Shown here piece after piece: positions 48,415 to 64,000 of a DNA stretch of 64,000 bases. The stretch comes from Paraflavisolibacter caeni (lineage in GTDB: Bacteria > Bacteroidota > Bacteroidia > Chitinophagales > Chitinophagaceae), in NCBI RefSeq assembly GCF_025628885.1, contig NZ_JAOTIF010000001.1:310001-374000 (forward strand), read 5' to 3'. The notes under the pieces are model-generated. The model was not told the DNA's origin. It saw only the letters and a list, made by a program, of their open reading frames with translations, and searched no databases. Every line of letters begins with the position of its first letter. The first letter of the stretch is position 1. Both the position numbers and the translations under genes were made by a program.

Positions 48415-51400
48415 ATGCTTAAAAGATTCATTGAGAGGCCCGTTTTATCAACGGTTATATCTATCATTCTGCTTTTGTTGGGCGGGTTATCACTATTCTC
48501 ATTACCGGTTACCTTGTTTCCCGATATTGCGCCGCCGAGTGTACAGGTAACGGCATTTTACCCGGGCGCCAATGCCGAAGTGGTGGCACGTTCAGTAGCT
48601 ACTCCTATAGAAGAAGCCATCAATGGCGTGGAAAACATGACCTATATGACTTCCAACTCCAGTAACGATGGAAGCATGACGTTGACCGTTTACTTCAAAC
48701 AAGGCACTGACCCCGATATTGCATCTGTCAATGTGCAAAACCGTGTATCCAAAGCCGTTAGTCAAATACCGCAGGAAGTAATCCAGTCGGGTATTTCCAC
48801 GCAAAAAGTACAGAACAGTATCATCATGTTTGTGGCACTATCAAGTGACGACCCTAAGCAGTATAATGAACTTTTCCTGGAAAATTATATAAAAATAAAT
48901 CTTATTCCCCAGGTACAACGTGTGCCCGGTGTGGGACAGGCTTTGGTATTTGGTACCAAAGATTATTCCATGCGTATCTGGCTGAAGCCCGACCGGCTGA
49001 GCGCAAACAACCTTTCTCCGCAGGATGTGTTGAATGCCATCAGGGATCAAAACCTGGAGGCAGCTCCTGGACGCGTGGGCCAAAGCAGCCCTGAAACATT
49101 TGAATACGTACTTAAGTATAAGGGTAAGCTAAGCCAAAATGAAGACTACGAAAATTTTGTCATTAAGGCAAATCCTGACGGTTCAATGCTCCGTTTGAAG
49201 GATGTGGCCCGTGTAGAATTTGGGTCTTATACCTATTCTTCGAACAGCCGGATGGATGGAAAGCCGGTGTCTGGTTTTGCCGTTTTTCAAACAGCCGGAT
49301 CCAACGCCAACGATATCCTGACAGAGGTGGAGAAATTGCTGAATGATTTTTCTACCAGTCTTCCCAAAGGTGTAAAGACCACCACTATGTATAACTCCAA
49401 AGAGTTTTTGGATTCGTCAATTTACCAGGTGCGTGAAACTTTGCTTATCGCATTCGGGCTGGTATTTATCATGGTATTTTTATTCCTTCAGAATTTCCGT
49501 TCTACCTTGATCCCGGCTATTGCCGTACCTGTTGCCATTATTGGTACCTTTTTCTTTTTGCAGTTGTTTGGTTTTACACTTAACCTGCTTACTTTATTTG
49601 CATTGGTATTGGCAATTGGTATTGTGGTGGATGACGCCATTGTAGTAGTGGAAGCTGTACATACCAAAATGGAGCGAACGAAACTGCCTGCAAAGGAAGC
49701 TACGATACAATCCATGAATGAAATTTCAGGCGCCATCATATCCATCACGCTGGTAATGGCGGCGGTGTTTGTGCCAGTTGGTTTTATGCAGGGTCCTGCA
49801 GGTGTGTTTTACAAGCAGTTTGCATTTACACTTGCTATCGCCATTTTAATTTCTGCTGTAAATGCATTAACGCTTAGTCCTGCTTTGTGTGCGTTGTTTT
49901 TGAAAAACCTGCATAGTGATGAGGAAGGAAATGTGCATAAGACGAACAAAGGATTTGCAGGGCGTTTCTTCGACGGTTTTAATGCTGGTTTTAGCGCCAT
50001 AACAAACCGGTATATACAGAGCCTGCAATTTTTGATCCGTCACAAATGGATCGCTCTAACGGGTTTGGCGGTTGTAGCAGCTACCAGCTTCTGGTTGGCA
50101 AATAAAGCTCCGACCGGGTTTATTCCTACAGAAGATCAGGGTTTTGTTTTGTATGCCGTTACTACTCCTCCCGGCAGTTCGTTGGACAGAACCCGCCAGT
50201 CTACAGAAGCTATTGACACTATTATCCAAAAGGAGGCAATGACGGATCACCTATATACTATTGATGGGCTGAATTTTATCAGCTTTTCCAATGCCTCTTC
50301 TTACGCCGCCGGGTTTATCAGGCTGAAAGACTATGATAAAAGAGGGGCCTTGAAAAATCCAGAGCAGATTGCCGGTATGCTAACTCAGAAGGTAAGCCAG
50401 GTAAAAGGCGCCAACACCTTCTTCTTTAACTTTCCCACGGTGCAGGGTTTTGGTAATGTGAGCGGTTTTGAATTTATGCTGCAGGACAGGACGAATGGTC
50501 CCTTAGACCGTTTGGGCAATACGGCTTATGCTTTTATCGGCGCCCTGATGCAAAGGAAAGAAATCGCATATGCTTTTACAACCTTTGCCTCAGGCAACCC
50601 TCAGTATATGGTTGAAGTGGATAATATAAAGGCAAAGCAACTAGGCGTATCTATCAGCGAGCTGATGCAAACCATGCAGATTTATTATGGGAGCAGCTTT
50701 GTTTCAGATTTTAACCGGTTTGGAAAATATTACCGCGTTATGGCGCAGGCTGATATTCCCTATCGTGCCGACGCCAATTCACTGGAAGGCATCTATGTTA
50801 AGAACAACCTTGGTGAAATGGTGCCGGCTAAAACATTAGTGTCATTCAAACGTGTGTTTGGTCCGGAAACAGTAACACGTAACAACCTGTTTAATGCAGT
50901 TGCCATCAACGGTTTACCCAAACCGGGATATAGTACAGGTGATGCCATTAAAGCTATTAAAGAAACTGCGAAACAGGTATTGCCCAGAGGATATGCCTTT
51001 GAATGGACAGGTGTAACAAAAGAAGAAGTCAAAACAGGTAGCCAAACAGCTTTTATCTTTTTGCTCAGTGTCATATTTGTATACTTCCTGCTGTGTGCCC
51101 AGTATGAAAGTTACATTCTGCCGCTCGCTGTTATTTTAACGGTTCCCACAGGGATATTAGGCGTGTTTTCATTTATTCGCTTTTTTGGCATTGATAACAA
51201 TATATACGTCCAGATAGGCATGATCATGCTCGTAGGTTTGCTGGCGAAAAATGCGATCCTGATTGTTCAATATGCTGTACAGCGCAGAAGATCCGGTATG
51301 GGGCTTGTTGAATCTGCCCTGGAAGGATCAAGACTCAGGCTGCGTCCCATTTTGATGACTTCTCTTGCATTTATCGTAGGATTGATACCATTGACATTGA

Positions 51401-51579
51401 CTACCGGCGCTTCTGCCCTCGGAAATCATTCTATCGGTATAAGCGCTATAGGCGGTATGCTTTCCGGCGTTATTCTCGGAGTATTGATCGCTCCTGTATT
51501 GTTTGTTATTTTTCAATACCTGCAAGAGAAAGTTGTAGGTAGGCCAAATCATAGAGATGTTTCCACTATGAATCATTGA
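48415..51579 (+). CDS. RND multidrug efflux permease (HAE1/AcrB family)
   Basis: The 1054-residue inner membrane proton/drug antiporter of the tripartite pump. It has the N-terminal FIERPVLSTVISIILLLLGGLS, two large periplasmic loops and twelve expected transmembrane helices. The proton-relay aspartates lie in GIVVDDAIVVVEAV (about residues 402-408). The second-half signatures are FLLCAQYESYILPLAVILTVP and GLLAKNAILIVQYA. Length and motifs are those of a functional AcrB-type pump. The substrate range cannot be read from sequence. Confidence 0.96.
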   Translation: MLKRFIERPVLSTVISIILLLLGGLSLFSLPVTLFPDIAPPSVQVTAFYPGANAEVVARSVATPIEEAINGVENMTYMTSNSSNDGSMTLTVYFKQGTDPDIASVNVQNRVSKAVSQIPQEVIQSGISTQKVQNSIIMFVALSSDDPKQYNELFLENYIKINLIPQVQRVPGVGQALVFGTKDYSMRIWLKPDRLSANNLSPQDVLNAIRDQNLEAAPGRVGQSSPETFEYVLKYKGKLSQNEDYENFVIKANPDGSMLRLKDVARVEFGSYTYSSNSRMDGKPVSGFAVFQTAGSNANDILTEVEKLLNDFSTSLPKGVKTTTMYNSKEFLDSSIYQVRETLLIAFGLVFIMVFLFLQNFRSTLIPAIAVPVAIIGTFFFLQLFGFTLNLLTLFALVLAIGIVVDDAIVVVEAVHTKMERTKLPAKEATIQSMNEISGAIISITLVMAAVFVPVGFMQGPAGVFYKQFAFTLAIAILISAVNALTLSPALCALFLKNLHSDEEGNVHKTNKGFAGRFFDGFNAGFSAITNRYIQSLQFLIRHKWIALTGLAVVAATSFWLANKAPTGFIPTEDQGFVLYAVTTPPGSSLDRTRQSTEAIDTIIQKEAMTDHLYTIDGLNFISFSNASSYAAGFIRLKDYDKRGALKNPEQIAGMLTQKVSQVKGANTFFFNFPTVQGFGNVSGFEFMLQDRTNGPLDRLGNTAYAFIGALMQRKEIAYAFTTFASGNPQYMVEVDNIKAKQLGVSISELMQTMQIYYGSSFVSDFNRFGKYYRVMAQADIPYRADANSLEGIYVKNNLGEMVPAKTLVSFKRVFGPETVTRNNLFNAVAINGLPKPGYSTGDAIKAIKETAKQVLPRGYAFEWTGVTKEEVKTGSQTAFIFLLSVIFVYFLLCAQYESYILPLAVILTVPTGILGVFSFIRFFGIDNNIYVQIGMIMLVGLLAKNAILIVQYAVQRRRSGMGLVESALEGSRLRLRPILMTSLAFIVGLIPLTLTTGASALGNHSIGISAIGGMLSGVILGVLIAPVLFVIFQYLQEKVVGRPNHRDVSTMNH

Positions 51580-51617
51580 GTAGAATAATATTTTCAATGA
51601 AATCAACTACGTAGTAT

Positions 51618-53039
51618 ATGATACATAGCATCAACTATAAATTATATTTCGGTCTTTTTCTACTGATTATTTTCGTTTCATCATGCAGGGTAGGAAAAGA
51701 ATATCAACAACCGGAATTAGAATTACCAAAGCAGTTCAATCCGGTAAGTTTTTCTGATACCAGCAGTATAGCTGATATAGAATGGAAAAAGTTTTTTGCC
51801 GATACTATTTTACAAGATTTAATAGGGAGAGGAATTACTTATAATCACGACATGTTACTTGCCATAAAAAGAATTGATATTGCGCAGCAACAGCTAAAAC
51901 AATCAAAAGTTTTGCAACTGCCCGAATTCAACTTCGAAGTAACAGGTCAATATAATTATCCCTCAAAGAACAGTTTAACAGGAATCAGTACAAAGAGCTT
52001 TTTGGGTAAAAGTCATCTTGAAAATTATCTGGCTATTGTCAGTATGTCCTGGGAAATTGATGTCTGGGGAAAAATACGCCGGCAAAAAGAAGCAGCTCTT
52101 GCAGAGTACGTTCAAACTTATGAGGCCGCGAAGGCGGTGCAGACTCAGCTCGTAGCAAATATTGCACAAGGTTATTTCAACCTGCTTATGCTTGATAAGC
52201 AATTGGAAATAACCCACAAGAACCTTGCTTTAAATGATACATTTGTACAGGCTACCCGGTTGCTAAAGGATGCAGGCATTGGCAATTCATTAGCTGTCCA
52301 GCAAGCAGAATCACAAAGGCAAACTACAGCATTGTTAATTCCTCTGCTTGAACAGGATATCGCCCTGCAAGAAAATGCTCTTCATATTTTAACAGGGCAA
52401 CTTCCTGGTACACCTTTACGTAGAACATCATTACAGCAAGTTTCAATGGCAGATCATCTTTCTGCCGGATTGCCGGTTTCTATGGTGAGTAGAAGGCCCG
52501 ACGTCCGGTCACAGGAAATGGCGTTAATAGCAGCTAATGCGAAAGTTGGTGTGGCGCAGGCAAATATGTACCCTGCTCTGAACATCACAGCGGGCGGGGG
52601 ATTAGAGTCCTTCCAATCCAATAATTGGTTCCAGATTCCTAGTTCTTTATTTGGTTTGGCGGCAGGTACTATTTCGCAACCAATATTTGCAAGGAGAGCA
52701 CTAAAAACGGCATACGAAATAGCGAAACTGCAAAGAGAGCAGGCTGTCATTCAATTCAGACAATCCGTTCTGTTAGCGACAGGAGAAGTGACAGATGCAT
52801 TAGTGCAAGTGGAGCAATTAAAACAAGAGCAACAGATTGCAAAAAGCCAGGTAGATACTTTGAAATATGCTGTGTCTAATGCTCACCTCTTGTTCAAGAG
52901 TGATATGGCTAATTACCTGGAAGTAATCATAGCACAGAGAAGTTCAATACTGGCTGAGTTGAACCTGGCATCCATTCAGCGCCAGCAATTGGGTGCAATG
53001 GTAAATTTATACCGTTCTTTGGGCGGAGGGTGGAAGTAA
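51618..53039 (+). CDS. RND efflux outer membrane factor (TolC/NodT family lipoprotein)
   Basis: A 473-residue outer membrane channel with a lipobox (LLIIFVSSC, C23) and the NodT/OprM pattern. Two OEP repeats are present: a first with WEIDVWGKIRRQKEAALAEY near residue 138, and a second with RRPDVRSQEMALIAANAKVGVAQANMYPALNITAG near residue 293. It forms the exit duct of the pump encoded by the two preceding genes. The spacing between pump and channel genes is 38 nt, so they are probably co-transcribed. Confidence 0.95.
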   Translation: MIHSINYKLYFGLFLLIIFVSSCRVGKEYQQPELELPKQFNPVSFSDTSSIADIEWKKFFADTILQDLIGRGITYNHDMLLAIKRIDIAQQQLKQSKVLQLPEFNFEVTGQYNYPSKNSLTGISTKSFLGKSHLENYLAIVSMSWEIDVWGKIRRQKEAALAEYVQTYEAAKAVQTQLVANIAQGYFNLLMLDKQLEITHKNLALNDTFVQATRLLKDAGIGNSLAVQQAESQRQTTALLIPLLEQDIALQENALHILTGQLPGTPLRRTSLQQVSMADHLSAGLPVSMVSRRPDVRSQEMALIAANAKVGVAQANMYPALNITAGGGLESFQSNNWFQIPSSLFGLAAGTISQPIFARRALKTAYEIAKLQREQAVIQFRQSVLLATGEVTDALVQVEQLKQEQQIAKSQVDTLKYAVSNAHLLFKSDMANYLEVIIAQRSSILAELNLASIQRQQLGAMVNLYRSLGGGWK

Positions 53040-53104
53040 TATTGCATTAAGTTGAAGGAGCAGGTTCGTTAAACATTACTTTTCTAATCTTCTTAATTTT
53101 ACTT

Positions 53105-55048
53105 ATGCGTCAGCTTGCAGCTATAATGTTTGCAGATATGGTGGGTTACACTGCATTGATGCAGGAGAACGAAGAACTGGCAAAAAACAACCGGCAACGA
53201 CTGAAAGAAGTGCTGGAAGGATCTGTACGGGACTTCAACGGGAAAATTCTGCAATATTATGGTGATGGTTCACTAAGCATATTCGGCAGTGCGATTGACG
53301 GGGTAAACTGTGCAATAGAAATTCAAAGGCAATTGCAGCAAGCACCCAAAGTGGATTTGAGAATTGGCATTCATACTGGCGATATTTCCATTGAAGAGGA
53401 TCTGGTTTATGGTGATGGGGTCAATCTTGCCTCACGAATTGAATCACTTGCCGTACCGGGGAGTGTGTTTATTACGGAAAAGGTAATCGATGATTTGAAA
53501 AACCAACATGACATTTCAACACATGAACTGGGCTATTTCGAGTTAAAGAATGTAAAGAATCCAGTAAGGATATTTGCGATTTCGAACCCTGGGCTTACAG
53601 TCCCTGTGCGTAGTGAATTAAAAGGAAAACTAAAACCGCCATCCAACCGCCTTGCCGTTTTACCATTTGTAAATATAAGTCCCGATCCGGAAAATGAATA
53701 TTTCAGTGATGGCATTACAGAAGAATTACTGAATGCGCTTACAAAAGTTGATGGGCTACAGGTTATTTCCCGTACTTCTTCATTTGCTTTCAAAGGCAAA
53801 CATGATGATATTCGGGAAATAGGAATTAAGCTTAATGTTGACAAGATACTTGAAGGTAGTGTGCGAAAGGCTGGTAATAGGGTAAGGATTACCGCTCAAT
53901 TGATCAATGTATCGGATGGTTATCATATTTGGAGTGAAAACTATGATCGAGATCTTAATGATATTTTCCAGATACAGGACGAAATCAGCAGCATTATTGC
54001 CAACCGGCTGCGGGAAAACTTATCCTTGGCCTCCCAAAAAGAACATCTCGTAAAGACTTCAACTCAAAATCCTACAGCTTATATACTTTATTTCAAAGGA
54101 CTTCATTATTGGAACAAGATAACTCCGGCGGATGCCTACAAGGCAATCGAATGTTTTGAGCAGGCGATCAAACTTGAGCCGGAATATGCCCAGGCTTACG
54201 CCATGATTGCTGCTGCCTATTCTTATCTCGGTGCTACCGGACAGTTGAAATCTGAAAAAGCTTTTGATATTGTGCACAGGTTTAGTGAAAAAGCCATGCA
54301 ACTTGATGACAGCATTCCTGAAAGCCATATAGCAAAGGCCAGTGCATTTTTGTTTTTCGACAGGAAATGGGATGCAGCCTATCAGTCTCTTCAAAAAGCC
54401 ATTCATTTGAACCCTGCTTCAATGGGAGCTTATCAGGTATTAATGCTTTATTATTTAATAGTGGGTAAAAAAGAAGAGGCGCTGGAGACGATGGAGCATG
54501 CTATAGAAATTGATCCACTTTCACCCATAACGAATCATCATCTTGCTGAGGCTTATCTTTTTAATGAACGTTATGACGATGCCATCAGAATTTCAGACCA
54601 AATATTAGAAATAAACCCGCAATTGAGGATTGTTAAAGAAACTAAGGGATGGTGTGTGGGAATGAAGGGCGATTGGGAAAAAGCGCTTGAGTATTTCAAA
54701 GATGTACAACGGGTGCACCGGCATACCTATAAAGGTTTAGCGCCGATTGGATTTGCATACGCCAAACTAGGTCAAAGAGAAAAGGCCCTTGATATTATTG
54801 CTAAGATGGAAGAAAGGCAAAGACAGGAACCTGATACGGTAATTGACGGTGATCTTCTAATGGTGTGGTGGGCGTTAGGGGATAAGGATAAAGTTTTTTA
54901 TTACTTAAACCAATGCCTCGAAAAAAAGATGGGCCCGATCAATTATATGTTTGAACATCCAGTAATGAAAGGTATTACGGATGATCCGCGTGTTGCTGCA
55001 TTGAAGAATAAAATACTGAGATTGGAACAAATAGCTGCCCAGGTTTAA
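53105..55048 (+). CDS. Class III adenylate cyclase with TolB-like and TPR domains
   Basis: A 647-residue protein with no signal peptide or transmembrane helix. An N-terminal class III cyclase domain (about 1-165) has metal aspartates D11 (FADMVGYTALM) and D54 (YYGDGSLSIF) and the VNLASRIES segment with Asn and Arg four apart. A TolB-like domain follows (about 178-310, LAVLPFVNISPDPENEYFSDGITEELL). Then come several TPR repeats (about 315-630, including YKAIECFEQAIKLEPEYAQAY). This architecture is widespread in soil bacteria; the TPRs should bind a partner that controls cyclic nucleotide synthesis. It is a second, soluble cyclase next to the membrane form at 35229-36296. Confidence 0.92.
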   Translation: MRQLAAIMFADMVGYTALMQENEELAKNNRQRLKEVLEGSVRDFNGKILQYYGDGSLSIFGSAIDGVNCAIEIQRQLQQAPKVDLRIGIHTGDISIEEDLVYGDGVNLASRIESLAVPGSVFITEKVIDDLKNQHDISTHELGYFELKNVKNPVRIFAISNPGLTVPVRSELKGKLKPPSNRLAVLPFVNISPDPENEYFSDGITEELLNALTKVDGLQVISRTSSFAFKGKHDDIREIGIKLNVDKILEGSVRKAGNRVRITAQLINVSDGYHIWSENYDRDLNDIFQIQDEISSIIANRLRENLSLASQKEHLVKTSTQNPTAYILYFKGLHYWNKITPADAYKAIECFEQAIKLEPEYAQAYAMIAAAYSYLGATGQLKSEKAFDIVHRFSEKAMQLDDSIPESHIAKASAFLFFDRKWDAAYQSLQKAIHLNPASMGAYQVLMLYYLIVGKKEEALETMEHAIEIDPLSPITNHHLAEAYLFNERYDDAIRISDQILEINPQLRIVKETKGWCVGMKGDWEKALEYFKDVQRVHRHTYKGLAPIGFAYAKLGQREKALDIIAKMEERQRQEPDTVIDGDLLMVWWALGDKDKVFYYLNQCLEKKMGPINYMFEHPVMKGITDDPRVAALKNKILRLEQIAAQV

Positions 55049-55091
55049 TTCCATTACAACTAAATCTTTACTACAATCCTGCCATTACGTA

Positions 55092-55223
55092 ATGCCAAAT
55101 CCTCGTGGTGGAGGCGGTGCTACGGGTGATTGGGATGATAATAATTCAGGCGGTTGGGATAGCTATGATTCTGATAGTTCTTCCGATAGTTCCTCTGATT
55201 GTGATAGTTCAAGTAGCGATTAA
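55092..55223 (+). CDS. Putative Ser/Asp-rich micropeptide
   Basis: A 43-residue frame with ATG at 55092 and TAA at 55221. The N-terminal half is glycine-rich (MPNPRGGGGATGDWDDNN) and the C-terminal 22 residues are almost only Ser and Asp with one Cys (DSYDSDSSSDSSSDCDSSSSD). Varied serine and aspartate codons argue against a simple DNA repeat and favour selection on the peptide. No ribosome site is obvious, but Bacteroidota often lack one. It lies 43 nt after the cyclase gene and could be read through from it. Coding status is uncertain. Confidence 0.4.
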   Translation: MPNPRGGGGATGDWDDNNSGGWDSYDSDSSSDSSSDCDSSSSD

Positions 55224-55456
55224 ATGAAAAACCTGGCCGGAGGCACTTATTCTGTTTTTTTTAGTCAATTATTCTAAGTCTTTTAATAAGTAATTTATCT
55301 TTCGAATATTGTCATTGTTTCTTCTTTCATATAATATTTCTAGCCCTTCTCTGTAAACAATTTTCCAATTAAGAACTAGCCAATCTTAAATATTGATTAA
55401 ACAAGCTTTTGGGCAATAAGGTAATTGATTTACGAGTTTTGAAAATTTCTTTTCTT
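55224..55456. other. AT-rich intergenic sequence before the BlaI-type operator
   Basis: Together with the operator region this fills the gap between the putative micropeptide and the repressor gene. It is very AT-rich, with no coding frame or repeat that I can support. Confidence 0.6.
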
Positions 55457-55496
55457 AAAACTAAAAATTTAGTTGTATGACTAAATTTTTAGTTTT
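55457..55496. promoter_or_regulatory. Operator: perfect 17-bp inverted repeat upstream of blaI-like gene
   Basis: AAAACTAAAAATTTAGT (55457-55473) and its exact reverse complement (55480-55496) are separated by 6 nt, 24 nt before the repressor ATG. Each arm is itself nearly palindromic (CTAAAAATTTAG), so the site could hold two repressor dimers. BlaI/MecI repressors bind dyads of this kind just upstream of their own genes. Confidence 0.8.
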
Positions 55497-55520
55497 AGCT
55501 TCGTTTCGAAATCATTACAA

Positions 55521-55883
55521 ATGAAAACATTGACCAAAGCCGAAGAGCAGATCATGCAGGTACTCTGGAAGATAGGTGAAGGTTTTATCCGGGATGTGAT
55601 GGATGCCGTGCCTGAGCCTAAACCACACCAGAATACAGTAGCCACTATGCTGAAAATACTGGTCGAAAAGGAATTTGCAGGCATCAAAACATTTGGCCGC
55701 CAACACCAGTATTATCCCCTGATCAGTAAAGATGCTTATTCCAAGGCTTCGATGAAGAGCCTGGTGAAAGGCTATTTTGATGGGTCGTTCAGTGATGCGG
55801 TATCCTTTATGGTGAAGGAAAAGAGCCTGAGCCTGGAGGACCTGGAAGCCCTTTTAAAACAACTAAAAAAATCAAAGAAATGA
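55521..55883 (+). CDS. BlaI/MecI/CopY family transcriptional repressor
   Basis: A 120-residue winged-helix repressor. The N-terminal LTKAEEQIMQVLWKIGEGFIRDVMDAV and PHQNTVATMLKILVEKEFAG segments are the BlaI DNA-binding domain; a helical dimerisation domain follows (about 75-120). It should bind the dyad just upstream and be inactivated by proteolysis triggered by the M56 sensor. Its stop overlaps the ATG of that sensor gene by 4 nt (ATGA), the standard BlaI-BlaR coupling. Confidence 0.95.
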   Translation: MKTLTKAEEQIMQVLWKIGEGFIRDVMDAVPEPKPHQNTVATMLKILVEKEFAGIKTFGRQHQYYPLISKDAYSKASMKSLVKGYFDGSFSDAVSFMVKEKSLSLEDLEALLKQLKKSKK

Positions 55884-58222
55884 TTGCTTTTGCCTATTAC
55901 TTGCTGAAAGTATTTATCTGTTCTGCAGTCCTGTTTCTTTATTACAAGATTGCCCTGCAGGGTAAAGAATTTCACCAGTGGAACCGGTTTTATCTGCTCA
56001 TCATTACAGTACTTTCTTTGGTTATACCATGTCTTGAGTTCCCAATTATGGAGCACAGAGCCCAGGCACCACAAGGCCCGATTCAAATTGTGCAGGTGGT
56101 GGCTTCTGCTGATCAATACGTAGATGAGATTTCAGTAGCTAACCAGCATACAACGTTGTCTGGAGAACAATTGGGCGAGTTGGTTTATATACTTATTTCC
56201 ATCGTATTTGCCTTTCTGTTTGTCCGTGCCCTGCTCAACATGCAAAAGCTCATACGTAGCCATGTTGTTCAGACGAGTGGCAATGTAAATCTTATTGAAA
56301 CGGATGCTCCAGGTACTCCCTTTTCTTTTTTCAGGTACATTTTCTGGAATCCTGATATTGATCTTCAGAGCGAGACTGGCCGCCAGATCCTGCAGCATGA
56401 AATGATTCATGTGCAACAAAAACATTCGCTGGATAAATTGCTCATGAAATTGATACTGATCCTTTTTTGGTGCAACCCGGTTTTTTGGTTGATCAGAAAA
56501 GAGCTAAGCATGATCCACGAATTTATAGCCGACCGAAAATCAGTAGGCTCTTCCGGTGCCACAGCTTTGGCTGCCATGATTCTACAGGCTGCCTGTCCCG
56601 GAGCTTTTCACCAGTTAACGAATCCATTTTTTAAATCCTCAATAAAACGACGCCTTGCTATGCTTACAAAAAATCACAATCCGCGGTTTAGCTATATCGC
56701 CCGGTTAATGGCCCTGCCTGTATTAGCCGTTGTTGGACTTGCCTTTACCCTGAAAACAAAAGAAGTGGTTGCAAATGCTGTGAACGCCAAAGAGCCCATA
56801 ACGGTTGTCATTGATGCGGGGCATGGTTATAGGGAGGGCAACAAACCTGATGGTGCCAGAGTTGACGGTATTTACGAAGACGATTTGGTATTGGAGATCG
56901 CCAAGAGAATAAAGGAGGAAAATTCCAACAAGAACTTACATATCATTCTGACCAGGACAGACAAAAACATTGTGAATCTTGAAGAGCGGGTAAGAATTGC
57001 AGCAGAACACAGGGCAGATCTCTTTATCTCTCTGCATGTAGCTGCTCTACCTTCTTCCAACCCGCCAAAAGCAAAAAGATCAGATGGTATGGAAGTATTT
57101 ATTTCCGGAAATAACCTTGCTATTCAGCAAAGAAGTGAACTCTTAGGTTCAGCTTTGATCGATCAATTAAAACTTGTACACAAAACTTTTCCTGAAATAA
57201 TAAAAAGGGAAAAGATTGGTGTCTACGTCCTGGACAAAAATACCTGTCCTGCTGTGTTGGTTGAATGTGGTTATATGACAAATAAAACGGACATGGCATT
57301 TATAAAAAGAGAAGCCAATCAAAAGGCAGTAGCTCAAGCTATTTTAAACGCCATTGAACGCTATGCCGGACAGATTAATAGTGAAATGGTGCAGGAATCG
57401 GTGTCAGATACAATACCCAATAAAAATAAGGTATTCTTAAAGGTAGAACAGCCTGCGCAATTTCCAGGAGGAGAAAATGCTTTAGTAGAATTTCTCAAAA
57501 AGAACCTGAAATCTTCCGTTCCAGTTGCCAATAAGGCTCCGAAGGGAACCTATAATGTGATGTGCAGGTTCATTATAAATGAAAATGGCAAGCTTTCCGA
57601 TTTCACAGCTCTGACTCGCTACGGCTATGGAATGGAGGAGGAAGCGCTTAGGGTCATAAGACTTTTACCAAACTGGATTCCTGCTGTACAAAATGGCCAC
57701 AACGTGGCAACCTATTATACTCAACCAATTTCATTTGTAATAGAGGATAAAGGCAATCTGCCAAAGGATAGTTCAGGCGTTATTATAAAAGCCAACCCAC
57801 AGGTGAAGTCAGATGCCAATCCTTTACTTAGCAATGCGGGTAATATAGTTTTTGAAAAAGCAGAAGAAATGCCTCAATTTCCTGGGGGTATAGAGGCATG
57901 GGCGCGTTATTTGCAAAAGAATTGTAATGCTACTGTCCCTGTAACAAATGGAGCTCCTGCGGGTACCTATACTGTATTGGTAAGGTTTATTGTTGATCAA
58001 TCTGGCAGTATATCAGCTATAGAACCGCTAACTAAAAAAGGATACGGCATGGAAGAGGAGGTCATACGATTAATTGAAAAGGGTCCTAAATGGGTGCCTG
58101 CTAAGCAAAATGGTCATATAGTAACTGCATATAAAACACAGCCGATTACGTTTGTAGTTGCGGAGGAAAACAATCCGCGAAAGGATAGTTTAAACGTTAT
58201 TACGAAAGTAAGCCCGCAGTGA
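55880..58222 (+). CDS. M56 (BlaR1-type) sensor protease fused to N-acetylmuramoyl-L-alanine amidase and two TonB C-terminal domains
   Basis: A 780-residue protein with four parts. Part 1 is an M56 membrane protease (1-295): N-terminal helices near 5-25, 36-54 and 102-120, then zinc motif H173-EMI-H177 with the downstream E214 (MIHEFIADRK), and a helix near 277-292. Part 2 is an Amidase_3 domain (about 305-495) with zinc ligands H315 (DAGHG), E333 and H386 (SLHVAA) and catalytic E462 (VECGYMTN). Parts 3 and 4 are two similar TonB C-terminal domains at about 525-622 and 661-761, each with QFPGG and YGYGMEEE-type motifs. The amidase would face the periplasm and could sense or process peptidoglycan. 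Usual BlaR1 proteins carry a penicillin-binding sensor there instead. Confidence 0.9.
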   Translation: MIAFAYYLLKVFICSAVLFLYYKIALQGKEFHQWNRFYLLIITVLSLVIPCLEFPIMEHRAQAPQGPIQIVQVVASADQYVDEISVANQHTTLSGEQLGELVYILISIVFAFLFVRALLNMQKLIRSHVVQTSGNVNLIETDAPGTPFSFFRYIFWNPDIDLQSETGRQILQHEMIHVQQKHSLDKLLMKLILILFWCNPVFWLIRKELSMIHEFIADRKSVGSSGATALAAMILQAACPGAFHQLTNPFFKSSIKRRLAMLTKNHNPRFSYIARLMALPVLAVVGLAFTLKTKEVVANAVNAKEPITVVIDAGHGYREGNKPDGARVDGIYEDDLVLEIAKRIKEENSNKNLHIILTRTDKNIVNLEERVRIAAEHRADLFISLHVAALPSSNPPKAKRSDGMEVFISGNNLAIQQRSELLGSALIDQLKLVHKTFPEIIKREKIGVYVLDKNTCPAVLVECGYMTNKTDMAFIKREANQKAVAQAILNAIERYAGQINSEMVQESVSDTIPNKNKVFLKVEQPAQFPGGENALVEFLKKNLKSSVPVANKAPKGTYNVMCRFIINENGKLSDFTALTRYGYGMEEEALRVIRLLPNWIPAVQNGHNVATYYTQPISFVIEDKGNLPKDSSGVIIKANPQVKSDANPLLSNAGNIVFEKAEEMPQFPGGIEAWARYLQKNCNATVPVTNGAPAGTYTVLVRFIVDQSGSISAIEPLTKKGYGMEEEVIRLIEKGPKWVPAKQNGHIVTAYKTQPITFVVAEENNPRKDSLNVITKVSPQ

Positions 58223-58490
58223 AGTCAGAAGGTAGGTTACTTTGTTAAGTAATATTAGACCCTTATGGTTATTGCCAGATTTGTAGAATAAATAGGCATA
58301 GAATTACCCAGTTTAACTGTCCCTTCAATTAGTAACTGTTTTGCAATTTCAGTACATTTTCGATTTTCATAATAAATAATGAGACTTTAAACATGGGTGT
58401 GGAATTCTTTTAACCCTAAAAATAGTCCAGCTATAATTGATTGATTCATATCATATATATACATTCCATCTTATAAGTTTATTGACAGCA

Positions 58491-58508
58491 ATGGCCTTAT
58501 AAGGCCAT
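58491..58508. repeat. Perfect 18-bp palindrome
   Basis: ATGGCCTTATAAGGCCAT equals its own reverse complement. It has no T tract on either side, so a protein-binding site is more plausible than a terminator. Confidence 0.6.
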
Positions 58509-58656
58509 CTCAGGTGTGCAGTAAAAAAACAGGTGCGCAACGCTGTCATCACTAGTTCGGAGTGATTGTTGTTGCCCGTGAATTAAATGTTTTTACTGTT
58601 CCAAAACCGACACTCCTGGTGCATTTTGTGACTTTTTGTTATCCAAATAAAAATGC

Positions 58657-58684
58657 AAGACCTGCTCCAGTAGCAGGTCTTTTA
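58657..58684 (+). terminator. Rho-independent terminator in the gap before the beta-helix gene
   Basis: A perfect 10-bp stem AAGACCTGCT/AGCAGGTCTT (58657-58666 with 58672-58681) with a 5-nt loop ends in T residues. It could end the long M56-amidase transcript or an unannotated small RNA. Confidence 0.75.
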
Positions 58685-58748
58685 TATTCAGACAAACCCT
58701 TTAGATGCAATTGTATCATTATTTATTTGAACATCAATTTAGTATTTT

Positions 58749-60713
58749 ATGAAACACCTTTCCATTAGCCTAATTGTAGCCTACTGTTTATTATCTTCTG
58801 ATTCTTATAGTATTACTTTTTACATAAGTCCCTCTGGCAATGACGCCAACACAGGAACTTCAACCAGTAGTCCCTGGAAAACAATCTCTAAGGTTAACTC
58901 CAAAAATTTTAATAGAGATACCATCTTGTTTCAGGGAGGAAAAACATTTTATGGAAGTTTGAACTTTACAAACAATGACATTGGTACCAGTACTAAACCA
59001 ATTATAATTGGTTCTTATGGTACTGGTAAAGCAACAATAAATAGTGATAAACTGTCAGGATTATATATTTATAACGCTGCGGGCTTTGTTATTAAAAACC
59101 TGGTTTTTACCGGAGCGGGTCGTCTTACTAATACAAAGTCAGGCATAATTATTTATATGGACAAAGCCAATACAAAGTTGTCATACCTGAGCATACAGAA
59201 TGTAGAAGCGTATGGATACAGGAATGCAGGTATTACTATTGGCAGTTGGGCCACAGCAGGCGGTTTTAAAGATGTATCTATTACTAATAGTAACTGCCAT
59301 GATAATGGTAAAGCTGGTATTGAATTTTATGCCATGCAACCTTATACGCACAGAAACGTTTCTCTACGATATAATAAGGTGTATAATAATTCGGGTATAG
59401 CAGAACTAACGACAGAACTTACTGGAAGCGGTATTTCATTAGGAGGTGTGGATGTAGCAGTTGTAGAATATTGCACATCCTACAACAATGGATGGCTGCA
59501 TAAAGCTCCTAATATTGGTGGCCCTGTTGGAATTTGGGCCCACGAATCAGATAGCGTAACCTTTCAGTTCAATGAGTCGCATCATAACAAAACAGGTTCC
59601 AGTAAGGACGGAGGAGGATTTGATTTGGACGGAGGCTGTACCAATTCATTCATGCAGTATAACTATTCGCACGATAACTACGGAGCTGGATATCTTCTCG
59701 CCCAGTATAACGGAGTACCTGTAATGAAAAATATCATCATCAGGTATAACATCAGTGAAAATGATGGTCGTAAAGGTGATCAAGGATCAATTCATATTTG
59801 GGCTTCAAGTACCAGTACTGGAATTCAGACGGTTAAAATTTATAATAATACCATATTCACTAAACCTAGTTCTACCGCTTCAGTTAAAGGATTTTATATC
59901 AGGAGCGGACCGATGTCAGACATAAAATTGAGGAACAACATATTCCAAACAACCGGAGGTGTTCCTCTTGTATATGTTCCTTATAATACATCTGCCTGCC
60001 TGTTTCAGGGAAACAGTTACTGGCCCTCAGGCGGTACATTCAAAATCATCTGGGGCGCTACTACTTATTCTTCTTTGGCTGCCTGGAGAACTGGGACAGG
60101 TAACAAACAGGAATATCTTAACGGAATTGCGAAAGGTTTACAAGCAGATGCCCAGTTTGCTGATACAACTTTAGGTGTTACTTTCAACGACGCTACAAAA
60201 TTGACCACCCTTAAAAGATATAAACTGAAATCCACATCAAGTCTCCTTAATAAAGGCTTGGACCTAAAAAATCTGTTTAGTATTAATGTGGGTACCAGGG
60301 ATTATTGGGGTACAAGCCTTGTTGGCAAGACCACATTTCATATAGGAGCATTCCAGGGAACTCCAATCAGCAACACAATGGAAATTATCGTTGCCCGACC
60401 TGATATTAGTACCAACCTGTCGCTAAGTACACCTATGGAGCCACAGCTTAAAGAGAATATTTTACAAGTCATATCAAACCCAATTCAAAATGATCTGATC
60501 ATAAATTTTGCGTTGGCAAAACGCGGAAGAACATCAATAGTATTATATAATTTACAAGGACAGTTGATAAAAGATATTTTTTCAGCAGAAGTAAATGCCG
60601 GAGAAAATAAACAGCTTAGAGTAGAAAGAGATCAGCTCACCAATGGCATATACCTGGTAAGTATGTTTGTTAATGGAGAAGTCTTAACCAAAAAAGTTTT
60701 ATTGAATAGGTAA
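58749..60713 (+). CDS. Secreted right-handed beta-helix protein with type IX sorting domain
   Basis: A 654-residue exported protein. A signal peptide (about 1-22) precedes a DUF1565-like start (FYISPSGNDANTGTSTSSPWKTISK). A long parallel beta-helix (about 60-420) follows, with repeated N-x-x-hydrophobic patterns and asparagine ladders. The type A type IX secretion sorting domain occupies about 574-654 (NPIQNDLIINF ... GIYLVSMFVNGEVLTKKVLL). It should be moved across the outer membrane and attached to or released from the cell surface. Beta-helix proteins of this type often bind or cleave polysaccharides; no catalytic residues can be named here. Confidence 0.9.
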   Translation: MKHLSISLIVAYCLLSSDSYSITFYISPSGNDANTGTSTSSPWKTISKVNSKNFNRDTILFQGGKTFYGSLNFTNNDIGTSTKPIIIGSYGTGKATINSDKLSGLYIYNAAGFVIKNLVFTGAGRLTNTKSGIIIYMDKANTKLSYLSIQNVEAYGYRNAGITIGSWATAGGFKDVSITNSNCHDNGKAGIEFYAMQPYTHRNVSLRYNKVYNNSGIAELTTELTGSGISLGGVDVAVVEYCTSYNNGWLHKAPNIGGPVGIWAHESDSVTFQFNESHHNKTGSSKDGGGFDLDGGCTNSFMQYNYSHDNYGAGYLLAQYNGVPVMKNIIIRYNISENDGRKGDQGSIHIWASSTSTGIQTVKIYNNTIFTKPSSTASVKGFYIRSGPMSDIKLRNNIFQTTGGVPLVYVPYNTSACLFQGNSYWPSGGTFKIIWGATTYSSLAAWRTGTGNKQEYLNGIAKGLQADAQFADTTLGVTFNDATKLTTLKRYKLKSTSSLLNKGLDLKNLFSINVGTRDYWGTSLVGKTTFHIGAFQGTPISNTMEIIVARPDISTNLSLSTPMEPQLKENILQVISNPIQNDLIINFALAKRGRTSIVLYNLQGQLIKDIFSAEVNAGENKQLRVERDQLTNGIYLVSMFVNGEVLTKKVLLNR

Positions 60714-60877
60714 TAGCTATTGACTAAAATGTGCGTTTTGGATGCTGTGCCGTGTCAACACATTTGATAAGTAGGAAGCGTTAAAGGGTGGCTAGGGTGG
60801 GACGCAGAGATCAAATTTTTTAATGGGTGCATAGGGGTAAAGATTTGCCTGGTTGTTATATTTTAAAACCAACCAGG

Positions 60878-63346
60878 ATGGACAAAACCCAAAAGAGCCA
60901 AAATTTACGGCTATTCCCAGGAAAAACACCAACCGCTGCTGCCTTTTCAACCAGGCATCGTCAACATAAAACTGTAGCCTGCTTGTTGGCACTCATGGCT
61001 TTTTTGCCAGGCATCAACCTCAGCGGATATGCTCAAACGGTAGAATCCAGAAAAACGACTGTTCTTCTTACCCAGCAACTGCGCGGAGTGGTAGTGGACA
61101 ACGTGTTGCAAACTCCCATTCAGGGTGCTACTGTCAGCCTGCCGGCGCTGGGCCTTACCACCATGACCGATGCCAGCGGAGCCTTTCGCTTTTCGGCTGT
61201 GCCCATTGGTGTACAGCAGCTGGCTATTACCCATGTTTCCTACAAAGAAGTCTTGCTCGATAATATCAATGTCATCTCCGGCAAGGAAAACGTGCTCAGT
61301 ATTGCTGTGGAAAGCCGCTTTAAGATGGCTGAAGAAGTAGTGGTACAGGCCAAAAGCAAACGAAACCGTCCGCTCAATGACATGAGCACTGTATCAGCCC
61401 GTGCCTTTACCGTGGAGGAAACCCAGAAATACGCCGCGGCAGTAAACGATCCCTCGCGCATGGCCACCGCCTTTCCTGGTGTGATGGCTTCCGATGATGG
61501 CAATAACAACATTATCATTAGGGGCAACTCGCCAACAGGGCTGCTCTGGCGTATGGAAGGGATAGATATACCCAATCCCAACCATTTTGCCAGTACAGGC
61601 AGCAGTGGGGGTGGTATCTCCATATTGAGTACACAGTTGCTCTCCAACTCCGACTTTATTACGGGGGCCTTTGCCGCCGAGTATGGCAACGCGCTTAGTG
61701 GGGTTTTTGACTTGAAGCTGCGCCGGGGCAACAACGAAAAGCGTGAGTATGCCCTGCAGGCTGGTTTCCTGGGCCTCAACGCTGCCGCAGAAGGTCCCAT
61801 TAGTGGGAAGGGTGGGGCTTCCTACCTGGCCAACTACCGCTACTCTACCTTGTCCTTGTTGGGTAAAATGGGCGTTGCCCTGGAAGCTGGCTCTACCGAC
61901 TTCCAGGACTTGTCCTACCACGTATATGTACCCACGAAACGGGCGGGTACCTTTTCACTCTTTGGCTTTGGCGGCCTCAGTTCGCAAGACATCAGCGGCG
62001 ATAAGGATTCTTCTAAATGGGAGGATAAGGGCGACCGCTACATCTCACGATTTGTGTCCAACACGGCCGCCACAGGGCTGACGCACAGCATTTCCCTGGG
62101 GCAGCGAACTAACCTGCGATCGGCGCTGGCCACGTCCTATAGCAAGATAGGTGACGACTACCAGTACATCGAGGATAATTACTCGTTGTCGGACGCCTAC
62201 ATCGACCGCTTTACTACGCGCAAAACCACGCTGACCTCAACGCTCAATCATAAGTTCTCCTCGCATAGTGTAATAAGGGGTGGAGCTATTGTCACTTTTA
62301 TCGGGTCCGATTATTACCAGAAGTCCAAGGAAAATGAGACAGCACCGTTGAAGGTCGTAATCAACTCAAAGGGCACCACCCAAACCGTACAGGGCTTTGC
62401 CCAGTGGCAGTATAAAATATTGGAGGGCGTGACGCTTAATGGTGGGCTGCACTACTTGCAACTACTTTACAATAATACTATGGCACTGGAGCCGCGCGCT
62501 TCCCTCAAATGGGAGATAGATAAAAAGAACACGCTTTCATTTGGCTATGGTGGCCATAGCCAAATACAGGCCATGGGTGTATACTTTGCCCAGGTGCAAC
62601 AGCCCGATGGCAGTTTGATCCATCCCAACCGGGACCTGGATCTGACCCGTGCCCATCACGGAGTGGTTTCTTATCACCGCTGGCTGGGAAGCAACTTGGC
62701 CCTGAAAGCCGAAGCCTATTATCAGCACCTCTATGATGTGCCCATAGCTACTTCTGATACCAGCACCTTTTCCATGCTGAATGTGCAGAGTGAATACATC
62801 ACTGATCCGCTGGTCAATAGCGGTACCGGTCGCAACTATGGCCTGGAGCTGTCGCTCGAAAAATACCTGGCCCACCGGCTCTATTATACCCTCAGTACCT
62901 CATTGTACCAAAGCAAGTACACTGCAGCTGACGGGGTAGAGCGCAATACTCGCTTTAACGGGGGCTACATTGTTAATCTCATTGGCGGAAAAGAATTTTT
63001 GTCGGCTAACGGTCTGCGCACCTTTGGCATCAACATTCGCACCCTGTACGCTGGTGGCCTGCGCACTACTCCCATCAACCTGGATGCCTCGCGCCAGGCC
63101 GGCTATGGCATTTACTACGAAAAAGAGGCCTATACGCAGCAAAATGACCCCTATTTCCGGACTGACCTTAGGCTAAGTCTGCGTTGGAACCGCTCGCGAC
63201 TGACCAGCACCCTATCGCTCGATATCCAGAACGTTACGAACCGCCTTAATGTTTACGGCGACTGGTATGATTCCGAAAAAGGAAAGGTGGTTACCAGTTA
63301 CCAGACAGGGTTGATTCCAATACTCAATTACAAAGTGGAATTTTAA
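60878..63346 (+). CDS. TonB-dependent receptor with carboxypeptidase-like regulatory domain, GC-rich
   Basis: An 822-residue outer membrane receptor. A long basic leader and signal segment (about 1-56, ending SGYAQ) precedes a carboxypeptidase-like regulatory domain (about 70-150, LRGVVVDNVLQTPIQGATVSLPALG). The plug follows (about 170-290, with PGVMASDDGNNNIIIRGNSPTGLLWRMEGIDIPNPNHF), then a barrel ending TGLIPILNYKVEF. The ATG at 60878 is preferred over an upstream frame opening at 60827. Base composition is clearly higher in GC than the preceding gene: one inspected 60-nt line has 32 G+C against 19 in a line of the beta-helix gene. Substrate unknown. Confidence 0.92.
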   Translation: MDKTQKSQNLRLFPGKTPTAAAFSTRHRQHKTVACLLALMAFLPGINLSGYAQTVESRKTTVLLTQQLRGVVVDNVLQTPIQGATVSLPALGLTTMTDASGAFRFSAVPIGVQQLAITHVSYKEVLLDNINVISGKENVLSIAVESRFKMAEEVVVQAKSKRNRPLNDMSTVSARAFTVEETQKYAAAVNDPSRMATAFPGVMASDDGNNNIIIRGNSPTGLLWRMEGIDIPNPNHFASTGSSGGGISILSTQLLSNSDFITGAFAAEYGNALSGVFDLKLRRGNNEKREYALQAGFLGLNAAAEGPISGKGGASYLANYRYSTLSLLGKMGVALEAGSTDFQDLSYHVYVPTKRAGTFSLFGFGGLSSQDISGDKDSSKWEDKGDRYISRFVSNTAATGLTHSISLGQRTNLRSALATSYSKIGDDYQYIEDNYSLSDAYIDRFTTRKTTLTSTLNHKFSSHSVIRGGAIVTFIGSDYYQKSKENETAPLKVVINSKGTTQTVQGFAQWQYKILEGVTLNGGLHYLQLLYNNTMALEPRASLKWEIDKKNTLSFGYGGHSQIQAMGVYFAQVQQPDGSLIHPNRDLDLTRAHHGVVSYHRWLGSNLALKAEAYYQHLYDVPIATSDTSTFSMLNVQSEYITDPLVNSGTGRNYGLELSLEKYLAHRLYYTLSTSLYQSKYTAADGVERNTRFNGGYIVNLIGGKEFLSANGLRTFGINIRTLYAGGLRTTPINLDASRQAGYGIYYEKEAYTQQNDPYFRTDLRLSLRWNRSRLTSTLSLDIQNVTNRLNVYGDWYDSEKGKVVTSYQTGLIPILNYKVEF

Positions 63347-63399
63347 AGCAATAATTAAGAATAAAACAGATCGAGAAAAACATCAGCAACATTATCATC

Positions 63400-64000
63400 T
63401 TACTTGTTTTCCATTTTTAGAAATTTAATGCCAATGATTATTAGCCAAATCAACCAAAGCGTACTGCCAATAAAGCCAGCCATATCCCAAACCGGAAAGT
63501 TGGGAATGACTGTAGCAAACAGTTCAGCCTGTGCCATCAGGTAGATAAAGGAAGCTGTTATTCCAAACCAACTAACCCATTTTGGAAATACATTCAATTT
63601 GATGAAAGCATACGATATCATAACCGTCCAGATGATGGTAAATAACTGACCTATATGTTCACCTAATAAAACGCCTCCAAACTGGTGGATTGTTTGAAAA
63701 GAAACTATGACGGCGGCTTTTGTAGCAGCATCACCAGCTGATACATAATTATTGGCTATTATAGGTACAACAAATACCCACCGCAACAATGCAATGATTT
63801 GAACAATGCCGGAGATCACACCAAATGTGGTAACCCATTTAATGAAGTCCAGTTTATTTTCGAATTTTCGACCAATGAGGATATAAGCGATCAGTAAGGG
63901 CAAGCCAAGCATTGCAAATGCCCACCATGTTAAAATTAGTGAACTCCCTCCTTCATGAAATTTGGTCAATACAATTCCTGTATTTTGCCGCAATATATCT
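63400..64000 (-). CDS. Multi-pass membrane protein, DUF4386-like, N-terminus outside window
   Basis: The C-terminal 200 residues of a membrane protein with about five hydrophobic helices (LILTWWAFAMLGLPLLIAYILIG, VISGIVQIIALLRWVFVVPII, HIGQLFTIIWTVMISYAFI, FGITASFIYLMAQAELFATV, GSTLWLIWLIIIGIKFL). The pattern resembles DUF4386 proteins, whose function is unknown. The frame is open to the right edge of the window; a TTG at 63993 could be read as a start but would lack the first helices of the family, so the gene is treated as truncated by the window. Confidence 0.75.
   Translation of the reverse strand, partial: DILRQNTGIVLTKFHEGGSSLILTWWAFAMLGLPLLIAYILIGRKFENKLDFIKWVTTFGVISGIVQIIALLRWVFVVPIIANNYVSAGDAATKAAVIVSFQTIHQFGGVLLGEHIGQLFTIIWTVMISYAFIKLNVFPKWVSWFGITASFIYLMAQAELFATVIPNFPVWDMAGFIGSTLWLIWLIIIGIKFLKMENK

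Follow-up and report, generated by a model that had tools for sequence, protein, structure and literature searches.

The repressor-receptor pairs BlaI-BlaR1 and MecI-MecR1, described in Staphylococcus aureus and Bacillus licheniformis, combine a repressor gene with a gene for an M56 gluzincin receptor (HExxH and ExxxD motifs) that has membrane helices and a C-terminal head outside the cell, and they are controlled autogenously through dyad operators. The same arrangement, with the outside position of the head judged from hydropathy only, appears at positions 55456 to 58222 of a 64,000-nucleotide stretch of the Paraflavisolibacter caeni genome (the window, meaning the whole of that stretch). 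Here, however, an Amidase_3 domain, with or without TonB_C or Plug domains, replaces the penicillin-binding sensor. Other pairs of adjacent genes in Bacteroidota share the BlaI and M56 parts and carry TonB_C or Plug, but these are without the amidase. Our interpretation, held with moderate confidence, is that the product is a BlaR1-type receptor in which a periplasmic, amidase-fold wall sensor would drive M56 cleavage of BlaI, and in which the head can be swapped. The features of the locus are as follows (aa, amino acids).

55456..55497, no strand: 18-bp inverted repeat, two tandem BlaI-type dyads (repeat search and upstream conservation)
55473..55503, plus strand: predicted Bacteroidota-type promoter (motif conservation, assumed consensus)
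55521..55883, plus strand: blaI-type repressor, 120 aa (Pfam Penicillinase_R, E 4e-29)
55880..58222, plus strand: M56-amidase-TonB_C-TonB_C receptor, 780 aa (open reading frame (ORF), Pfam)
55880..56761, plus strand: membrane and M56 gluzincin part, aa 1-294 (Pfam, BlaR1 profile alignment, hydropathy, conservation)
56804..57358, plus strand: Amidase_3 domain, aa 309-493 (Pfam E 4e-37; profile to 4rn7 E 9e-42)
57428..57745, plus strand: first TonB_C-like domain, about aa 517-622 (Pfam and own profile)
57848..58159, plus strand: second TonB_C-like domain, about aa 657-760 (own profile)
58657..58681, no strand: candidate bidirectional terminator formed by a 10-bp hairpin and T tracts, 435 nt past the operon (terminator scan)

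An ATGA overlap joins the two genes, and the matches to Penicillinase_R, M56 (aa 162-262, E 5e-12), Amidase_3 and both TonB_C stretches all lie above the Pfam curated cut-offs (two weak extra matches lie below theirs). The initial annotation, made from the sequence alone, had described a BlaI/BlaR1 layout with ATGA coupling and a receptor combining M56, amidase and two TonB C-terminal domains, and both descriptions stand. Pfam finds no penicillin-binding domain in the receptor. Among the five neighbouring window proteins scanned there is neither a beta-lactamase domain, which is a further difference from the classical systems and agrees with the annotation, nor a low-affinity penicillin-binding protein gene. 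The M56-amidase fusion recurs as a single open frame in other genomes, including contigs L001 and L002 of metagenome-assembled genomes.

The first 294 residues correspond to the membrane and protease part of BlaR1. Hydrophobic segments near aa 1-27, 34-59, 95-125, 184-206 and 269-294 resemble those of BlaR1, and a 29-row profile spanning them aligns with the corresponding region of the S. aureus protein (8exp), though the match is a distant one (E 1.8e-4). The topology so predicted is consistent with a periplasmic sensor, as had been proposed, with the amidase placed outside. All 58 receptors compared have the HExxH (aa 173-177, at 56396-56410) and ExxxD (aa 214-218) residues H173, E174, H177, E214 and D218. 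(These 58 proteins, set A1, are mainly best matches and were chosen for their amidase, so that its presence in all of them is by selection; the M56 set leaves out L003, on a cut contig, and L133, a distant second M56 pair; L016, which is the window again, and L117-L131, longer copies, were dropped before counting; sets A4, A5 and A7, of 43, 34 and 29 rows, are hand-picked subsets.) The functional roles of these residues, and of those of the amidase, are presumed from the respective families. F250 (28/29) aligns with the autocleavage residue Phe284 of BlaR1, and R258 (29/29) lies opposite the Arg of the BlaR1 KRR stretch that we took as Arg294 (residues as given in the available text of PMC9834060).

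The amidase begins about 18 residues past the last hydrophobic segment (median 19 in relatives, range 12 to 59); the BlaR1 sensor likewise follows the terminal membrane helix (PMC9834060). By profile it belongs with enzymes such as CwlV, CwlD, AmiC and 4rn7, sharing their zinc ligands and the position of the catalytic Glu, but it differs from them in being fused to a signalling protease, tethered to the membrane and sometimes deprived of that Glu. All the catalytic residues that the initial annotation had claimed can be located in the window protein (H315, E333, H386, E462). The three zinc ligands are invariant in 58 of 58 amidases, whereas the Glu, kept in 53, has become Gln in L041, L042 and L052, His in L047 and Gly in L134. 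These are five changes on five branches of the M56 tree, and since all five proteins keep the zinc ligands, binding may suffice and cutting may not be essential everywhere; that the cleft outlasts these losses speaks for binding as the common function. RsiV, the anti-sigma receptor for lysozyme, also links a wall enzyme to the proteolytic release of a regulator, and there binding, not muramidase activity, is the signal (PMC4183432, as far as its available text goes). The enzyme is an external ligand of RsiV, whereas here the enzyme fold lies within the receptor; by analogy, RsiV nevertheless shows that binding alone, with no catalysis, has been found to set off a proteolytic switch.

Where did the amidase come from? 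Four same-genus genomes (L030-L033) have separate amidase genes with a long insert that is absent from the fused domain. They share with the fused consensus a GIWVL segment before the catalytic Glu, which hints at an origin of the fused domain from such separate same-genus amidases. The host genome has another amidase-like gene, at C3:40030-40854, that matches the amidase part.

What follows the amidase is variable. In the window protein TonB_C occurs twice on an M56 anchor, whereas TonB energy transducers have their own N-terminal anchor and an ExbB/ExbD partner. By Pfam, 27 of the 58 amidase-bearing proteins have TonB_C, 15 have Plug, four have GldM_3rd and one has M23, and 14 end no more than 20 residues past the amidase; hence the amidase alone can be the head, and the TonB domains are dispensable for the architecture. 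The TonB_C, Plug and GldM-like domains are probably variable accessory parts contacting the outer wall or envelope. In ten relatives without amidase (set A3), Plug is present throughout, six also having a TonB_C match. Seven of the ten come from the window's own genus, with Plug in place of the amidase; the six of these seven that have upstream sequence available all keep the tandem operator described below, and six of the seven form one group (SH-like approximate likelihood ratio test 90) among amidase-bearing proteins, the seventh (L029) lying elsewhere. Longer copies of two of them (L130 and L131, of L023 and L024) adjoin FtsE-like, PurM-like and RibF-like genes, as amidase-bearing loci do (assignments from one scanned representative each). 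Amidase presence changes at least nine times on the 79-row tree, six of these changes being forced by well-supported branches; it is a quick tree with several long branches. Because the Plug group nests among amidase-bearing relatives and keeps the operator and, in L130 and L131, the neighbours, the head is, as far as sequence can tell, exchanged on a constant BlaI-M56 chassis.

The fusion is frequent. A relative at E 1e-40 or better is present in 221 out of the 394 same-family genomes, and among the 150 match rows listed (149 genomes), 104 genomes match to residue 480 or beyond and six more to residues 390-479. M56 and amidase thus share one alignment in at least 110 of the 394 genomes, among the matches listed, which is an undercount because proteins with longer linkers (L027, L111, L112, L114) match in pieces. 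Across the phylum, M56 relatives at E 1e-30 occur in 121 of 395 genomes, but the amidase is present in only one of the 21 outside-family M56 loci fetched (L146, from G621) and in none of four further outside-family rows aligned past the M56 part (1/25 in total). L146:1501-2925 (minus strand), which belongs to a different family within the class, encodes an M56-amidase protein; the BlaI there is distant, and its site ACTACAAATGTAGT blends the ACTA-type operator with the classical TACA-NN-TGTA type. Judging from these matches, the fusion is a family trait. The domain order is therefore not unique but frequent in the family. The initial annotation had regarded a wide distribution together with an established role as refuting its reading; of the two, only frequent occurrence within the family was found, no such role appearing in the literature searched.

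The repressor is of the expected kind. A 66-row BlaI profile matches MecI (1okr, E 3.5e-14), within the Penicillinase_R winged-helix dimer family. S95 is present in 66 of 66 BlaI proteins and F96 in 61; in an ungapped alignment to MecI and BlaI, S95-F96 lies one residue before the Asn-Phe cut (position from PMC9834060) and is the predicted scissile bond. The host genome also has a solo blaI paralogue (G000 C34:285850-286167; L132:5842-6198), whose protein is 86% identical to the window BlaI and whose tandem operator is one mismatch off the pattern, with no M56 gene in the surrounding stretch read; it is possibly a second repressor acting on the same sites. A second BlaI-M56 pair in the host genome (G000 C34:205421-206639; L133) encodes a distantly related 563-aa M56 protein.

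The inverted repeat upstream of blaI (arms 55456-55473 and 55480-55497) matches in 18 of 18 bp around a 6-nt spacer. The initial annotation had called it a perfect dyad operator; the repeat is indeed perfect, but each arm contains a 14-bp palindrome of its own, ACTAAA-NN-TTTAGT. A pair of neighbouring repressor dyads of the form ACTA-N6-TAGT (55460-55473 and 55480-55493), with centres 20 bp apart, is therefore a better description than one large dyad. The 20-bp spacing is kept in relatives. This core differs from TACA-NN-TGTA, presumably the classical BlaI/MecI operator type, and ACTA-N6-TAGT sites also occur in Bacteroidota BlaI-M56 loci of several other families. At least one such site is present in 65 of 66 blaI upstream regions (250 bp each; the window, its relatives and the host's solo blaI, with L022, lacking an upstream, and L054, with a cut blaI, dropped), as against none for a reversed control motif, and the exact tandem with its 6-nt spacer in 50. 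In a set of 18 genomes of the genus, that of the window among them, 13 contain a single exact tandem and five contain none (control 0/18). All 13 tandems lie directly 5' of an M56 gene of this operon type; of the five genomes without it, four lack an M56 relative and the fifth (G011) is cut at a contig edge. On sequence evidence, the operator is real and dedicated to this operon.

The operator coincides with a predicted promoter that follows what we take to be the Bacteroidota consensus. Its upstream element, TTG at 55473-55475, covers the edge of dyad 1 and the spacer, and its downstream element, TAGCTTCG at 55496-55503, lies just past dyad 2, so that dyad 2 would fall between the two. TAnnTT(T/C)G is found in 35 of the 50 tandem upstreams, in 33 of them 1 to 3 nt past dyad 2 (shuffled flanks, 2.7%), and TTG around the spacer in 44 of the 50, a count that has no control. 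The sites over blaI's likely own promoter are strongly conserved, and BlaI would presumably bind there.

Is anything else controlled from such sites? Exact ACTAAANNTTTAGT occurs in three places in the host genome (two of them at the operon), as against six for the reversed control, and ACTAWWNNWWTAGT in 12 as against 46. Several of the ten sites off the operon lie inside ORFs, and among the ORFs read around them there is, apart from solo blaI, no recognised wall-related gene. One ACTA-N6-TAGT site (G000 C7:114051-114064; L090) lies about 150 bp before a gene for an M48-like lipoprotein peptidase and may be there by chance. With up to two mismatches the tandem is found at the operon, at solo blaI (one mismatch) and at one other place (two mismatches), and the control at seven. 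Sites off the operon being no commoner than the control, there is no motif enrichment beyond the operon. Since the next best tandem fronts solo blaI and no wall gene with a site was recognised, control looks autogenous, one of the two outcomes that the initial annotation had envisaged.

How might such a receptor work? In the resting state, BlaI dimers bound to both operator dyads would cover the promoter and hold down expression of blaI and of the receptor gene. The presence of an amidase head implies that the natural ligand would be peptidoglycan or a piece of it. Such a ligand, derived from the wall (newly made or turned-over peptidoglycan, a muropeptide, a stem peptide), would then fill the active-site cleft, and the resulting movement would reach the cytoplasmic M56 site through the last membrane helix, which lies some 18 residues from the amidase. 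By analogy with BlaR1, the M56 site would clear the autocleavage loop and cut BlaI, most likely at S95-F96. The operon would be derepressed, yielding more repressor as well as more receptor and amidase, a self-limiting loop. The earlier suggestion that wall damage is turned into a signal by a BlaI/BlaR1-type switch keeps its layout and gluzincin residues; the TonB domains turn out not to be needed, and the domain order turns out to be frequent in the family.

Several observations weigh against this interpretation. The exact tandem is missing from 16 of the 66 upstreams, and L136 has no site within 250 bp of blaI (its tandem operator is present, more than 250 bp away). The predicted cut is one residue off the S. 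aureus BlaI site, and F96 is absent from five of the 66 BlaI proteins. Conservation of the catalytic Glu in 53 of 58 amidases argues that cutting matters in most of them, and the Plug replacements could mean that an outer-membrane or TonB signal, not the wall, is sensed. Finally, no regulon was detected past the operon and solo blaI, leaving no obvious output gene.

The alternative that survives best, although we think it unlikely, is that the protein is an effector: a working, membrane-tethered amidase that trims peptidoglycan, with BlaI and M56 setting its amount and the amidase itself as the output. This would explain why the catalytic Glu is so widely kept and why tandems with at most one mismatch are confined to the operon and solo blaI. 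The amidase profile gives one continuous alignment with amidases such as 4rn7, 5emi and 1jwq and a two-piece alignment with AmiA, AmiC and 3ne8, a pattern to be expected of a domain that lacks the extra regulatory segment presumably carried by the latter three. Of 65 relative loci, 64 allowed a judgement, and in 34 of these an FtsE-like gene is transcribed divergently from blaI; the FtsE family controls amidases in Escherichia coli (PMC11139282). The five Glu losses, the replacement of amidase by Plug in the same operon type and the short tether near the inner membrane speak against an effector, and the other amidase-like gene of the host leaves no obvious need for one. Both ideas might be combined in a self-contained wall gauge, which we put forward tentatively and rate as doubtful: one protein would sample peptidoglycan with a real amidase, report through its own cytoplasmic protease and be its own main output, the cell thereby adjusting a wall-cutting enzyme according to the substrate or product of that enzyme; a released stem peptide would possibly act on BlaI as well, and the Glu-less lineages would have retained gauging and given up cutting.

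It is improbable, in our view, that TonB_C and Plug are the true sensor, of outer-membrane transport or tension, and the amidase a peptidoglycan anchor. The frequency of TonB_C, Plug and GldM_3rd in amidase-bearing proteins and the universal presence of Plug in the ten relatives without amidase point that way, as do 24 M56 proteins mostly from other families, with TonB_C in eight and Plug in six; but 14 of 58 receptors have nothing past the amidase, and an anchor would have no need of the catalytic Glu. Still less probable is that the amidase makes the ligand, freeing stem peptides from which a derived cytoplasmic peptide acts on BlaI, so that sensor and coactivator source are one polypeptide. 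Amidases do make stem peptides. BlaI and MecI bind a stem-peptide dipeptide, whose precursor is presumed to be a product of wall hydrolases, and gamma-D-Glu-diamino acid acts on BlaI in B. licheniformis (PMC3305447, in the text available); on the other hand, the Glu is lost in five of 58 proteins, and no peptide importer or recycling gene was recognised among the recurrent neighbour groups. That a frameshift or assembly error joined a BlaR1-like gene to an amidase gene, against which the initial annotation had warned, is scarcely conceivable, because the identical domain order recurs in single open frames elsewhere, and nothing was found in its favour.

If the receptor is a wall sensor of the BlaR1 type, do its neighbours suggest a target? 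In relatives, the gap between the FtsE-like gene and blaI mostly contains the operator and measures about 95 to 250 bp, but in some loci it is longer and reaches 2752 bp. The FtsE-like gene matches the NCBIfam model FtsE best, with 235 bits, below the cut-off of 265 (one representative). It was considered as a target and rejected: in the 12 gaps read, its own likely promoter lies between the operator and the gene, and the host's ftsE, which sits elsewhere beside a purM-like gene, has no operator sites, so that the FtsE-like gene is rather an inherited neighbourhood. Given that position of the host ftsE, the operon has moved, or was lost and regained, in the window's genome, where the old syntenic site between ftsE and purM is apparently empty. 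In relatives such as L117 and L130, glycosyltransferase-like genes (by eye) lie beyond the FtsE-like gene, and PurM-like and RibF-like genes are downstream in many. In L111, L112, L114, L126 and L127 the divergent upstream gene is LpxB-like (lipid A synthesis; one representative), not FtsE-like. No single conserved target gene was found among the relative loci examined. In L136, the operator lies 255-275 bp from the ftsE side, ahead of a 797-aa FtsX-like ATP-binding cassette permease gene (by eye) that precedes blaI and the M56-amidase gene; this permease, a single case, is a possible target in that species.

In the window, the operon is flanked by an adenylate/guanylate-cyclase-tetratricopeptide-repeat protein on one side and a protein with a type IX secretion system sorting tail on the other, and ORF 48415-51579 encodes a resistance-nodulation-division pump, recognised by eye only. 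The candidate terminator is one of seven terminator-like sites in 55050-58900, where shuffles give 3.4. A sigma-70 scan, and Rfam over 50000-64000, added nothing, and PHROGs gave solely a phage regulator and endolysin families matching the same domains.

What is known of wall sensing in Gram-negative bacteria comes mostly from muropeptide recycling and from envelope stress pathways. The open-licence literature searched holds no description of an M56-amidase receptor: PMC12578637 proved a false lead, with nothing on such a receptor in the part available, and the main text of a wall hydrolase review (PMC6403190) is without M56, BlaR or TonB. A hydrolase-fold sensor that recurs in a large family, together with its natural Glu-less versions, would allow binding to be tested against cutting. 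The BlaR1 chassis accepts other heads (amidase, Plug, TonB_C), and the BlaI-M56 pairs of Bacteroidota should therefore not be annotated by default as regulators of beta-lactam resistance.

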